A stretch of 36,732 bases of DNA from Candidatus Rokuibacteriota bacterium (GTDB taxonomy: Bacteria; Methylomirabilota; Methylomirabilia; Rokubacteriales; CSP1-6). This document shows positions 10,802-26,350 of the stretch, one piece after another. The stretch's first letter is position 1. Each line of letters opens with the position of its first letter. The stretch spans positions 1 through 36,732 of the forward strand of contig JACQWC010000210.1 of NCBI GenBank assembly GCA_016209635.1, in the 5' to 3' direction. A program made the translations under genes and the position numbers. The notes under the pieces were generated by a model. It saw only the letters and a program-made list of their open reading frames with translations. It ran no database searches and was not told the DNA's origin.

Positions 10802-11460
10802 ACGCGCCTGCCCGCGCCGCGGCCGCGATCCTCCTCGGGGCCGCCGGCCTCGGGCTCTCGAGCCAGTCCGCGGGGGCCGAGCCGGCGCGGTTCAGGATCG
10901 AGCCCGGGGCGAGCGAGATCACCTTCAAGGCGACCTCCCGGCTCATGAACGCCGACGGGAGGTTCCACCGCTTCTCGGGCGAGGTGGTCGTGGACCCGGA
11001 CGATCTCGCGACGGCGCGCGTCACGCTGGTCATCGACGCCGCCTCCATCGACACGGACATCGCCCGGCGGGACAGCCACCTGCGCAGCGAGGACTTCTTC
11101 CACGTCGAGCGCTACCCGACGATCACCTTCGAGAGCGTCCGCATCGAGCCGCGCCGGAGCGGCGGCACGCCACCCACCGATTCACTCAGGCGCGCCTCGG
11201 GCGTCGGACGCCCTGCGGCTTCGCACTCCCACGCCGGCCTCGCGGTACCCGTGACCATCATCGGCCGCCTCACCCTGCGCGGGGTGACGCGCGAGATCGC
11301 GGTCCCGGTGGAGGTCCGGCTGACCGACGGCGCCCTCGTCGCGCGGGGCGAGCTCTCGCTCAAGCGCTCGGACTACGCGATCACCTACCAGTCGTTCCTC
11401 AACCCCATCGCCGACGTCGTGCGCGTCGCCTTCACGTTCCGCGGCCGCGCCGGGCTATAA
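10798..11460 (+). CDS. YceI-family periplasmic protein with an internal extra segment
   Basis: FRIEPGASEITFKATSRLMNADGRFHRFSGEVVVDPDD...SHLRSEDFFHVERYPTITFES...GRLTLRGVTREIAVPVEV; signal-like N-terminus. Confidence 0.85.
   Translation: MNAPARAAAAILLGAAGLGLSSQSAGAEPARFRIEPGASEITFKATSRLMNADGRFHRFSGEVVVDPDDLATARVTLVIDAASIDTDIARRDSHLRSEDFFHVERYPTITFESVRIEPRRSGGTPPTDSLRRASGVGRPAASHSHAGLAVPVTIIGRLTLRGVTREIAVPVEVRLTDGALVARGELSLKRSDYAITYQSFLNPIADVVRVAFTFRGRAGL
11146..11251. repeat. Diverged relative of the 25583-25780 tandem repeat, in-frame inside the YceI-like gene
   Basis: gagccgcgccggagcggcggcacgccacccac vs repeat gagccacgccgtgccgacagcacgccacccac (26/32 by hand) and gccggcctcgcggtacccg vs gcggcctcacggtacccg at the far end; contains hairpin gggcgt-cgg-acgccc (11199-11213). 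Confidence 0.5.
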
Positions 11461-14320: not shown

Positions 14321-15633
14321 GCATCGAGTGGATCACCCTCCTGATGCTCGCGGGCTTCATGACGATCCTCGCCGCGGGGCTGCCGCTCGCCTTCGCGACC
14401 GGCGCCGTCGCCGTGATCTTCGCGCTCTCGCTCTTCGGCGTCGACAGCCTCAACCTGATCGTGAGCCGCGTCTTCACGCTCATGGGGAACTACGTGCTCG
14501 TGTCGGTGCCGCTCTTCATCCTCATGGCGTGCATCCTCGAGCGCGCCGGCGTCGCCGAGGACCTCTTCCAGGCGGTCCATGTGTGGTCGGGGCGCGTCCG
14601 GGGCGGCCTCGCCGTCACGGTCATCGTCTCCTGCGCGATCATGGCGGCGATGGTGGGGGTCATCGGCGCCGAGGTCGTCACGATGGGGGTCGTCGCGCTC
14701 CCGGCGATGCTGAACCGCAAGTACGACAAGGACCTGGCGCTCGGCGCGATCTGCGCGGGCGGCGGCCTCGCCACGCTGATCCCGCCGAGCGTCGTCTTCA
14801 TCATGTACGGACTCACCGCGGGCGTCTCCGTCGGCCAGCTCTACATGGCGGGCGTGGTGCCGGGGCTCCTCCTGGCCGGGCTCTACATCGCCTACATCAC
14901 GACCCGCTGCTACCTCCGGCCGCACCTGGCGCCCGCGGCCAGCGAGGAGGAGCGGAACATCCCGCTCGTGGCCAAGCTCGGGCTCCTGCGGGGGCTGATC
15001 CTGCCCGCGCTGGTCGCCTTCGGCGTGCTTGGCTCGCTCTACGCCGGCCTCGCCACCCCGACCGAGGCGGCGGGCGTCGGCTGCCTGGGCGCGTTCGTCG
15101 CGGCCGCCGTCAACCGGCGGCTCACGTGGGAGAACGTGAGCCGGGCGGTGGCCGACACGACCAAGGTCACGTGCATGCTCTACTGGCTCTTCTTCGGCGC
15201 CTCGACGCTCATCGGCGTCTACACGCTCGCGGGCGGCACGAACTTCATGAAGCAGACGATCACGGCGCTCCCGATCGGGCCGTGGGGCATCCTCATCCTC
15301 ATGCAGATCGTCTGGGTCATCCTGGGCTGCCTCATCGACTGGATCGGCATTCTGCTCCTGACGGCCCCGATCTTCGTCCCCATCATCGAGAGCCTCGGCT
15401 TCAACAGCGTGTGGTTCGGCGTCCTCTTCTGCATGAACATGCAGATCTCGTACGTGTCGCCGCCGTTCGGTCCGGCGGTCTTTTACCTGAAGGGCGTCAC
15501 CCCGCCCGACATCAGCATCGGCGACATCTTCCACTCGATCTGGCCGTTCCTCGGCCTCCAAGTGATCGCGCTGGCGGCCGTGATGGCGTTCCCCCGGCTC
15601 GCGCTCTGGCTCCCGAGCCTGATGATCAAGTGA
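14317..15633 (+). CDS. TRAP transporter large permease DctM-type
   Basis: GLPLAFATGAVAVIFAL...IPPSVVFIMYGLTAGVSVGQLYMAGVVPGLLLAGLY...YVSPPFGPAVFYLKGV. Confidence 0.93.
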   Translation: MSIEWITLLMLAGFMTILAAGLPLAFATGAVAVIFALSLFGVDSLNLIVSRVFTLMGNYVLVSVPLFILMACILERAGVAEDLFQAVHVWSGRVRGGLAVTVIVSCAIMAAMVGVIGAEVVTMGVVALPAMLNRKYDKDLALGAICAGGGLATLIPPSVVFIMYGLTAGVSVGQLYMAGVVPGLLLAGLYIAYITTRCYLRPHLAPAASEEERNIPLVAKLGLLRGLILPALVAFGVLGSLYAGLATPTEAAGVGCLGAFVAAAVNRRLTWENVSRAVADTTKVTCMLYWLFFGASTLIGVYTLAGGTNFMKQTITALPIGPWGILILMQIVWVILGCLIDWIGILLLTAPIFVPIIESLGFNSVWFGVLFCMNMQISYVSPPFGPAVFYLKGVTPPDISIGDIFHSIWPFLGLQVIALAAVMAFPRLALWLPSLMIK

Positions 15634-15720
15634 TGGCGACGCCGGCACGTCCCTGTCCGAGGCCACCCACGCCGGTTCCGGCCTCGCGATCCGCGTTCCC
15701 ATGACGCTGCCCCCGACGCC

Positions 15721-17496
15721 ATGACCGGCGGCGAGGTGCTCGACGTGATGGCGGTGCGGGCGTCCGGCGACCCGGAGGCGGCGGTGCTGCGGGGACTCGC
15801 GCCCGACGGCGTCGACGACGTCGCGTGCGACATCCTGGTGGTCGGCGGCGGGACGGGGGGTATCGCCGCCGCTCTGGCCGCGGCGCGCGCCGGACGGCGC
15901 GTCTGCCTCCTCGAGGAGACCGATTGGATCGGCGGCCAGCTCACGGCCCAGGGCGTCTCGGCGCTCGACGAGCACGAGCATATCGAGCGCTTCGGCGGCA
16001 CCCGCTCCTACTACGCGCTGCGCGAAGCGATCAGGACCCACTATCGTCGCCTGTCGCCGACGCTCGCTGCGGCGGCCCATCCGAACCCGGGAAACTGCTG
16101 GGTGACGCGGCTGGCGTTCGAGCCCCAGGTGGCGCTGGCGGTTCTCGAGGGGATGGCCCGCCCGTTCGTCGAATCGGGCCGACTCCGCATCGACCGCCGG
16201 ACGAAGGCGTGGAGCGCGGACGTCGCGGGCGATCGGATCCGGACGGTGCTCGCCGTTCACCTCGACCATCGGCGCTGGACGTCATTCCGGCCGCGGATCG
16301 TCATCGACGCCACCGAGCTGGGCGATGTGCTGCCGCTGGTCGGCGCCGAGTACGTGGTCGGCGCGGAGTCCAAAGCCGAGACCGGCGAGCCGCACGCCCA
16401 GCCCGTCGAGCCCAAGACCCACTGCGTGCAGAGCTTCACCTATACGTTCGTCCTCGAGAACACCGGCCCCGGCCACTCGCACGTGATCCCGAGGCCGGAA
16501 AGGTACGAGCACTACCGCGACACGCAGCCGTACTCGCTCCGCATCCACGTCCACGGCGGGGAGATCTACGGTGAGGAGACGCGGTGGCTCGAGTACCAGG
16601 TGCTCGACCGGGCGCCGGCGACCAAGGGGAGTCTCTGGACCTATCGGCGGCTGATCGATCGGCAGAACTTCCCGGCCGGGCCTCCGAACGACATCAGCAT
16701 GATCAACTGGCCGGGGAACGATTACCGTGACGAGCGCATCCTCGACCGGTCGCCGGTCGACCAGGCGGGCGCCCTCCAGGACGCCAAACGCGTGAGCCTC
16801 GGGTTCCTCCACTGGCTCCAGACGGAGGCGCCCCGCCCGGGACATCCGCCCGGCTTCCCCGAGTTCAAGCCGCGACCCGACCTCTTCGGGACGGACGACG
16901 CGCTCGGGAAGTACCCGTACATCCGCGAGTGCCGGCGTCTCCGGTCGCTGAGGCCAGTGCTCGAGCACGAGGTGTCCGCGGACGATCAGGAGGGCGCGCG
17001 CGCCGAGCATTTCTCCGATTCCGTCGGGGTGGGCTGGTATCCGATCGACATCCATCGGGCGGGCGCCGAGGACGTCGGTGCCTCGTGCCGCACGAAGCCT
17101 TTTCAGCTCCCGCTGGGCGCGCTGATCCCCATCCGAATCCGGAACCTCCTGGCGGGCGCGAAGAATCTCGGCACCACGCATATCACCAACGGCTGCTACC
17201 GGCTCCATCCCGTCGAGTGGAACACCGGTGAGGCGGCGGGAGCCCTCGCCGCGTTCGCCCTCGATGTCGCGCGCGATCCCATCGAGATCCGCGCGGACGG
17301 CCGCCTGCTTCGCGACTTGCAGCGCCGCCTGGTGGCCGCGGGGGTGCCCCTCTACTGGTTCGTGGACGTGGGCGTGGACCACCCCGTGTTCGCCGCGCTG
17401 CAGATGGCGGCGCTCACGGGCGAGATCGACGGATCCCCCGAGAGCCTGGAGGCAGCGGCGCTGCCCGCGGCCGTCCGGCGCCGATTCGGGGTGTGA
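15721..17496 (+). CDS. FAD-dependent oxidoreductase (FAD_oxidored family)
   Basis: CDILVVGGGTGGIAAALAAARAGRRVCLLEETDWIGGQLTAQGVSALDEH; LAGAKNLGTTHITNGCYRLHPVEWNTGEAAGALAAFAL. Confidence 0.85.
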   Translation: MTGGEVLDVMAVRASGDPEAAVLRGLAPDGVDDVACDILVVGGGTGGIAAALAAARAGRRVCLLEETDWIGGQLTAQGVSALDEHEHIERFGGTRSYYALREAIRTHYRRLSPTLAAAAHPNPGNCWVTRLAFEPQVALAVLEGMARPFVESGRLRIDRRTKAWSADVAGDRIRTVLAVHLDHRRWTSFRPRIVIDATELGDVLPLVGAEYVVGAESKAETGEPHAQPVEPKTHCVQSFTYTFVLENTGPGHSHVIPRPERYEHYRDTQPYSLRIHVHGGEIYGEETRWLEYQVLDRAPATKGSLWTYRRLIDRQNFPAGPPNDISMINWPGNDYRDERILDRSPVDQAGALQDAKRVSLGFLHWLQTEAPRPGHPPGFPEFKPRPDLFGTDDALGKYPYIRECRRLRSLRPVLEHEVSADDQEGARAEHFSDSVGVGWYPIDIHRAGAEDVGASCRTKPFQLPLGALIPIRIRNLLAGAKNLGTTHITNGCYRLHPVEWNTGEAAGALAAFALDVARDPIEIRADGRLLRDLQRRLVAAGVPLYWFVDVGVDHPVFAALQMAALTGEIDGSPESLEAAALPAAVRRRFGV

Positions 17497-24810: not shown

Positions 24811-25572
24811 GTGGAGGCGGCCCGGCAGCCGGTCGACGCGCGGCACGGCGTCGTCTGCGCCTGCGACCTCGACGACCTCGACGCGATCGCGCGGTTGCTC
24901 GAGGCGATCGATCCCGTCGAGGGCCTCGTCGGCTACAAGCTCGGCTCGCTCCTCACGCTCCGCTACGGGCTCGGCGCGGTCGTGCGGGCGTTCCGGAAGG
25001 CGACGGCCAAGACGCTCTTCTACGACCACCAGAAGGCGGGGCTCGACATCCCGAGCATGGCGGCCGAGTACGCCGCCGCGTGCCGCGACGCCGGCGTCGA
25101 CGCGCTCATCCTCTTCCCCCTGGGCGGGCCGCGGGCCCTCGACGCCTTCGTCGGCGAGACGCTCCGGGTCGGGCTCCGGCCCGTGGTCGGGGGCGCGCTC
25201 CCGCTCCCCGACTACCTCCTGAAGGGCGGCGGCTACGTCGCGGCGAGCGCGCTCCCGCGCATCATCGACCGGGCGTTCGGGCTCGGCGCGCGCGACTTCA
25301 TCATCCCGGCGACCGACGGTACCTCCATCCGCCGCGAGGCGGCGCGCCTGGCGGCGCGCGGCGGCGCGCGGCTCTACCTCCCGGGCATCGGGCCCCTCGG
25401 CGGCCAGCTCGAAGCCGCCTTCGCCGCCGCGCGGCCGCTCGCGACGTACGCGATCGTCGGACGCGCCATCTACGCCGACCCGCGTCCCGCCGCGGCCGCC
25501 CGGCGGCTGGCGGGGGCGGCTCGCGCCTTCGCGCAACCGAGCCGCGCCGCGCCCGCAGCACGCCACCCGTGA
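24811..25572 (+). CDS. Orotidine 5'-phosphate decarboxylase/HUMPS-like protein
   Basis: GVVCACDLDDLDAIARLLEAIDPVEGLVGYKLGSLLTLRYGL...KTLFYDHQKAGLDIPSMAAEYAAACRDAGVDALILFP...GVYAIVGRAIY-type ending (ATYAIVGRAIYADPRPA). Confidence 0.75.
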   Translation: MEAARQPVDARHGVVCACDLDDLDAIARLLEAIDPVEGLVGYKLGSLLTLRYGLGAVVRAFRKATAKTLFYDHQKAGLDIPSMAAEYAAACRDAGVDALILFPLGGPRALDAFVGETLRVGLRPVVGGALPLPDYLLKGGGYVAASALPRIIDRAFGLGARDFIIPATDGTSIRREAARLAARGGARLYLPGIGPLGGQLEAAFAAARPLATYAIVGRAIYADPRPAAAARRLAGAARAFAQPSRAAPAARHP

Positions 25573-25582
25573 AAGCCGGCCG

Positions 25583-25780
25583 GAGCCACGCCGTGCCGAC
25601 AGCACGCCACCCACGGTCTGACGCGGCCTCACGGTACCCGATACAATGGAGCCACGCCGTGCCGACAGCACGCCACCCACGGTCTGACGCGGCCTCACGG
25701 TACCCGATACAACAGAGCCACGCCGTGCCGACAGCACGCCACCCACGGTCTGACGCGGCCTCACGGTACCCGATACAATG
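25583..25780. repeat. Three tandem copies of a 66-bp unit (25583-25648, 25649-25714, 25715-25780)
   Basis: gagccacgccgtgccgacagcacgccacccacggtctgacgcggcctcacggtacccgatacaatg repeated; copy 2 ends ...acaaca instead of ...acaatg, otherwise identical by eye. A degenerate partial copy (27/34 by hand) lies at 25539-25572. Confidence 0.95.
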
Positions 25781-26350
25781 ACGCTCGCGCTCGACCACCG
25801 TCTCCCGCCGCGCACCGGCTGGGCCACGGTCGTGCCCCGCGGCCAGCGCCTGCGCATCCTCGAGGTGGACGGCGGCCAGATCGGCGACTTCGTCGTGTTC
25901 AACGCGGACGACCTCCGCGAGCGGTTCGACCAGGGACGGACCAAGGCGAACCAGGGGCGGATCCTGATCACGAAGGGGCACGTGCTCTACTCGAAGAGCA
26001 ACAACGTCATGATGACGATCACGGAGGACACGTACGGCATCCACGATCTCCAGTACGGGATGTGCAGCCGCTGGATCTTCACGAGCGGCGGGTACCGCGG
26101 CTTCGCCGGCGGCTTCCAGCCGGGCGGCGGCCAGGGGCTGCCCGAGTTCGGCTGCTGGGAGATCCTGACGGAGGCCCTCCGGCCGTGGGACATCCCGCCC
26201 GAGGACATCCCGAGCCCGCTCAACGTGTTCCAGACGATGCACATCGACGTGGAGACCGGGGCGCTCGGGATCCTGCCCGGGCGCAGCCGGCCCGGCGACT
26301 ACATCGAGCTGCGCGCGGAGATGAATTGCCTCTGCGCGCTCTCCGCCTGA
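25778..26350 (+). CDS. DUF1989 (urea carboxylase-associated family) protein
   Basis: RTGWATVVPRGQRLRILEVDGGQIGDFVVFNADDLRERFDQGRTKANQGRILITKGHVLYSKSNNVMMTITEDTYGIHDLQYGMCSRWIF. Confidence 0.85.
   Translation: MTLALDHRLPPRTGWATVVPRGQRLRILEVDGGQIGDFVVFNADDLRERFDQGRTKANQGRILITKGHVLYSKSNNVMMTITEDTYGIHDLQYGMCSRWIFTSGGYRGFAGGFQPGGGQGLPEFGCWEILTEALRPWDIPPEDIPSPLNVFQTMHIDVETGALGILPGRSRPGDYIELRAEMNCLCALSA

Follow-up and report, generated by a model that had tools for sequence, protein, structure and literature searches.

At one locus in a MAG of Candidatus Rokuibacteriota, the gap between a pyrF-like gene and a gene of the DUF1989 family is filled by three near-identical units of 66 bp, which raises the question of what such an array is and why it stands at this junction. 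The locus lies in a contig of 36,732 nucleotides that was analysed at its full length (here termed the window). A preliminary description had proposed that the units, taken to be perfectly identical, could be a triplicated promoter for the DUF1989 gene. The tandem expansion is real, since three units were called by TRF at 25582-25780 (period 66, 3.0 copies, score 384), and unit 3 does close with the ATG of DUF1989 (25778). Identity is not perfect but 97-100%; units 1 and 3 match exactly, whereas unit 2 departs from them at its final two bases. Several features had escaped the preliminary description, namely a partial fourth unit from which the last ~10 codons of pyrF (SRAAPAARHP) derive, two further copies elsewhere in the window, and an open frame that passes through all of the units (Table 1). 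This frame, here called the bridging ORF, overlaps the pyrF stop and the DUF1989 start by 4 nt each and reads V KAG RSHAVPTARHPRSDAASRYPIQ W SHAVPTARHPRSDAASRYPIQ Q SHAVPTARHPRSDAASRYPIQ before its stop codon. The 13-codon ORF that begins at the ATG of unit 1 (MEPRRADSTPPTV) does exist as described, but it is the 70-codon frame that matters.

Table 1. Coordinates of the repeat copies and adjoining genes in the window.
Feature	Position	Strand	Evidence
Copy in frame within YceI-domain gene	11146..11258	+	R1, E 2.8e-4
Second junction copy, DctM gene to FAD-dependent oxidoreductase	15631..15724	+	R1 15641-15704, E 1.3e-7
pyrF-like gene (OMPdecase family), stop TGA 25570-25572	24811..25572	+	Pfam PF00215, frame
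Partial unit 0, within pyrF 3' end	25539..25581	+	nhmmer; R1 23.5 bits, E 1.8e-6
GTGA, overlap of pyrF stop and bridging ORF start	25569..25572	+	Sequence; pyrF stop by GC-frame analysis
Bridging ORF, 70 codons, through all units	25569..25781	+	Translation, intact overlap chain
Repeat unit 1	25583..25648	+	TRF and repeat model R1, 65.9 bits
Repeat unit 2, final CA in place of TG	25649..25714	+	TRF and R1, 62.5 bits
Repeat unit 3	25715..25780	+	TRF and R1, 66.9 bits
ATGA, overlap of bridging ORF stop (TGA 25779-25781) and DUF1989 start	25778..25781	+	Sequence
DUF1989 gene	25778..26350	+	Pfam PF09347, E 2e-47; ORF

The repeat occurs well beyond this locus. A genome-wide search with the 66-mer, as the preliminary description had suggested, gave about 30 convincing unit matches in the MAG, several of them in tandem; the array as a BLAST query gave 22 matches, and a repeat model built from 57 diverse units gave 55. 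The same model has at least ~90 matches in each of four other genomes (G003, G040, G004 and G021), and detects the repeat in 39 of 57 genomes of the same family as against 0 of 38 elsewhere in the phylum. A pattern scan of GTDB contigs returned at least 80 records, and all those listed are Candidatus Rokubacteria/Rokuibacteriota MAGs; the hosts are Rokubacteria of soil and groundwater. Two blocks are conserved at the nucleotide level in the alignment, GGCCACCCACGG and CGGCCTCGCGG..CCCG.TACA. We found no description of this repeat family in the literature searched. Judged by these matches, the array is one site of a dispersed Rokubacteria family and not a local triplication of a promoter. That the copies have diverged and are spread over many MAGs also argues against an assembly artefact, although the exact count of units at this site is provisional.

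The 3' end of the element was defined by aligning 106 arrays; gene calls at the junctions came from GC-frame analysis rather than from annotation. In these arrays the element ends in TACA, and the next gene starts right after it, in most cases within an ATGA or GTGA; the gene 5' of the element usually terminates in ATGA or GTGA immediately before it. Copies between co-directional genes are usually flanked by two xTGA overlaps with an open frame in between. This strict chain of stop/start overlaps was unbroken at 43 of 57 junctions, compared with 11/57 and 16/57 when one or two bases were inserted after the upstream stop as a control (Fisher p 1e-10, for copies that are related and sites that are not independent). 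In a validation set of named GenBank loci, from which the contigs of the three main genomes were removed and which may include kin of the minor contributors, the chain was intact at 19/30 loci as opposed to 3/30 and 3/30 after shifting (p 2.5e-7); over both sets, it was intact in 10-28% of the frameshifted controls. About a quarter of the junctions are broken, often with TAA or TAG as the upstream stop, and nine further arrays extend the upstream gene in frame at its C-terminus.

Because the copies share ancestry, agreement between the 5' and 3' frames was also tested within single units. The two frames agree in 30 of 36 single-unit arrays, all of them open, where 20.3 would be expected by permutation with shuffled partners (1/20000). 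Most of this signal comes from one subfamily (MSDARLSQATHGPRRPRGPRYK; MSDARLSQATHG..), in which the core is read in another frame and the end is a compensating TACAAATGA rather than TACAATGA, and the frame rule may in part go back to a few founder elements. Tandem growth follows a similar pattern. Spacing between units in co-directional arrays is 0 modulo 3 in 37 cases, 2 in 11 and 1 in 4, a remainder of 2 being what a 4-nt overlap of successive ORFs would give. Whole-codon periods of 66, 63, 51 and 81 occur, as do relay arrays with periods of 3k+2; the 3 x 65-bp array of the MAG sits outside any co-directional junction. The longest array seen (G023 L105 1498-1945) has seven in-frame units and a bridging ORF of ~150 codons. 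A relay is present at the second junction copy in the window, where the DctM gene overlaps by TGA/ATG a 23-aa ORF (MATPARPCPRPPTPVPASRSAFP), followed by ATGA, a 7-aa ORF (MTLPPTP), and a further ATGA at the oxidoreductase. At a pqqC-pqqD junction (L015 1502-1570; G000 C247), the frame of the element enters pqqD and the expected ATG is ATA, which suggests from the reading frame that this PqqD is fused and N-terminally extended.

Copies are also found inside proteins. The YceI profile of 148 positions stretches over 183 residues in the window, in keeping with an in-frame insertion of ~33 aa of repeat DNA. Nested in this copy is a second repeat at 11181-11231, TTCACTCAGGC..GGGCGTCGGACGCCC..CGCACTCCCA, which has a perfect 7-bp stem and is read in frame within copies of the first; it occurs also at L119 1628-1659, with variants in L080 and L081. 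In HisH, antisense copies form in-frame insertions after FYFVHSYYP (L174, L179, L188 and L176), of ~39 aa in G000 (L174 1212-1331) and ~20 aa in G003 and G040, and a GNAT gene (C90) holds a further in-frame copy.

Relatives without the element show what such sites look like when empty. At hisH-hisA, the arrangement in G023 is ATGA-element-ATGA, while in the other genomes inspected the two genes are directly adjacent, typically with an xTGA overlap. The site at hemC is occupied in at least five genomes (G021, G003, G040, G044 and G041) and is a direct overlap in many others, and an element between hisA and hisF is common to G003 and G040, which belong to one genus. For the pyrF-DUF1989 site itself no close empty orthologue was found, the DUF1989 matches being at most ~41% identical, and a pyrF match was found only in G062 (56%). 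The element-free pyrF of that genome lacks the repeat-derived tail and ends in LAFETAR and a stop just ahead of hisI. Gene order there (L378) is nadC-pyrF-hisI with neither element nor DUF1989, both of which separate pyrF from hisI in the window.

The reading that we favour, with a probability of roughly 0.7, is that of a selfish repeat resembling the Rickettsia palindromic elements (RPE), whose surviving copies preserve the coupling of termination to reinitiation. The family, its sites, the double overlaps, the open frames, the frame compensation and the empty sites are seen in the sequences, whereas translation, reinitiation and mobility are what we infer. The preferred insertion site would be the 4-nt stop/start overlap (ATGA or GTGA) between co-transcribed genes, and insertion would leave an xTGA on either side of an insert that is itself an open frame. 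Ribosomes finishing the upstream gene could then reinitiate on the bridging ORF, translate across it, stop at the second xTGA and begin again at the downstream gene. Spacers of ~20-38 nt all but eliminate reinitiation in E. coli and Haloferax (PMC10666635), so that an insert of 66-200 nt would have to be an ORF for coupling to persist. A Shine-Dalgarno core was found at 2 of 64 element-associated starts, which are related by descent, compared with 11 of 22 element-free hisA starts. Spacers that uncouple and the rarity of this core at element starts together point to a ribosome relay through the bridging ORF. As the copies form an ORF overlapping both genes, the inserted DNA probably hands ribosomes on and leaves the operon unbroken. 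Tandem growth would keep the coupling either by whole-codon periods or by a relay of ORFs overlapping by 4 nt, and the element would persist only where it is translated through. The in-frame insertions and C-terminal tails behave as would selfish DNA that is tolerated where frames stay open. A stronger version, which we offer tentatively and hold to be somewhat doubtful, is that these are mobile mini-genes that target overlaps, duplicate them and add a relay cistron while their hosts stay coupled, in which case their number could tune expression.

A search for mobilising features turned up neither a transposase nor terminal inverted repeats, and no strict duplication of the target. The element begins CGGAGCC and ends CGCTACA, which are not inverted repeats such as a MITE of a DDE transposon would have. 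Junction copies carry xTGA on both sides, but intragenic sites have no matching flanks. The Y2/HUH transposase (PF04986) was considered as a mobiliser and set aside since it is not distributed in parallel with the element, and a phage or plasmid origin likewise, as a search of viral contigs, phages and plasmids gave no match.

It may instead be that the bridging ORFs are real small-protein genes with a functional Rokubacteria peptide (..RSHAVPTARHPR..ASRTPLQ). The peptide is recurrent, has its own start and stop, sits in operons and has a core conserved across genera. However, its codons show no periodicity, the dN/dS-like ratio in the main frame is ~0.94 (a weak test over 22 codons), and the peptide has no Pfam match. 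The other subfamily moreover uses a different frame of the same DNA, and copies occur antisense in hisH, inside YceI and as C-terminal tails. We therefore consider a small-protein gene unlikely.

A regulatory or structured RNA leader, such as an attenuator or the binding site of a post-transcriptional regulator, would fit the position of the element immediately 5' of start codons and its two blocks conserved as nucleotides. The structure this calls for did not emerge: RNAalifold gives only 3 consensus pairs, none of the structure covaries, and there is no significant match to Rfam. The small cgtgc/gcacg hairpin of the preliminary description is paired in 61% of cells, without covariation and not above shuffles, and the proposed switch between ccgtg and cacgg fared no better against shuffles. 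With copies in coding sequence and antisense, and downstream genes that have no evident common function, an RNA leader seems quite improbable.

A kinship with REP/RAYT elements is suggested by the reverse strand, where the repeat starts GTAGCGGGGnCCGCG, a REP-like GTAG-type tetranucleotide beside a short imperfect palindrome. Unlike in such systems, no RAYT (PF01797, Y1) is present in the element-rich genomes G000, G003, G021 and G023 and the stem has no covariation to support it, which makes this assignment very improbable. Least tenable is the triplicated sigma-70 promoter. Units 1 and 3 do contain CTGACG-N18-TACAAT as first described, and none is expected in shuffles. But TACAAT, which the conserved 3' end adjoining the start codon accounts for, shares its final AT with the ATG, so that transcription would begin inside codon 3 of DUF1989. 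No block of the family is more variable than the one with the supposed -35 hexamer (columns 36-41, entropy mostly 1.1-1.8 bits), and the sites lie within operons between overlapping genes.

Among known systems, the selfish repeat proposed here comes closest in behaviour to the RPE, whose short dispersed copies have open frames and lie in frame within protein genes that are unrelated to one another (review PMC10969869). The Rokubacteria repeat too is short, dispersed, multicopy and in frame within YceI, HisH and a GNAT gene. It differs in being ~66-90 bp rather than ~150 bp, in having no palindrome or consensus stem, in lying chiefly at stop/start overlaps as a separate bridging ORF, in forming tandem arrays and in its restriction to Rokubacteria. 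We class it as a small protein-coding dispersed repeat that is likened to the RPE by behaviour and is not a member of them, because the defining palindrome is absent. Enterobacterial repeats of the RU/ERIC type also join gene ends and supply new stop codons (PMC2759123), but such extension is sporadic, in contrast to the regular pattern here with stop/start overlaps on both sides. The TAACTGA tandem repeats of Beggiatoaceae stand immediately 5' of start codons, many of which lack a Shine-Dalgarno motif, and have been proposed to act as a regulatory or structured RNA leader (PMC4679880). The Rokubacteria repeat is likewise short, tandem and adjoins start codons at which Shine-Dalgarno motifs are rare, whereas the 7-nt TAACTGA unit has stops in all frames, is untranslatable and forms no bridging ORF. 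Termination-reinitiation at ATGA is known from direct gene-gene overlaps (PMC6728339, PMC10666635); the overlaps here are the same and the mechanism presumably so, with the difference that an ORF encoded by the repeat is interposed.

If this reading is true, repetitive DNA can colonise the overlapping genes of operons, the tightest part of a genome, and leave expression unbroken. The family would also provide dozens of natural termination-reinitiation experiments, with cistrons of 7 to ~150 codons placed at known overlaps whose sites are empty in relatives. Many small ORFs and C-terminal tails annotated in Rokubacteria would then be derived from repeats and would not be functional genes.
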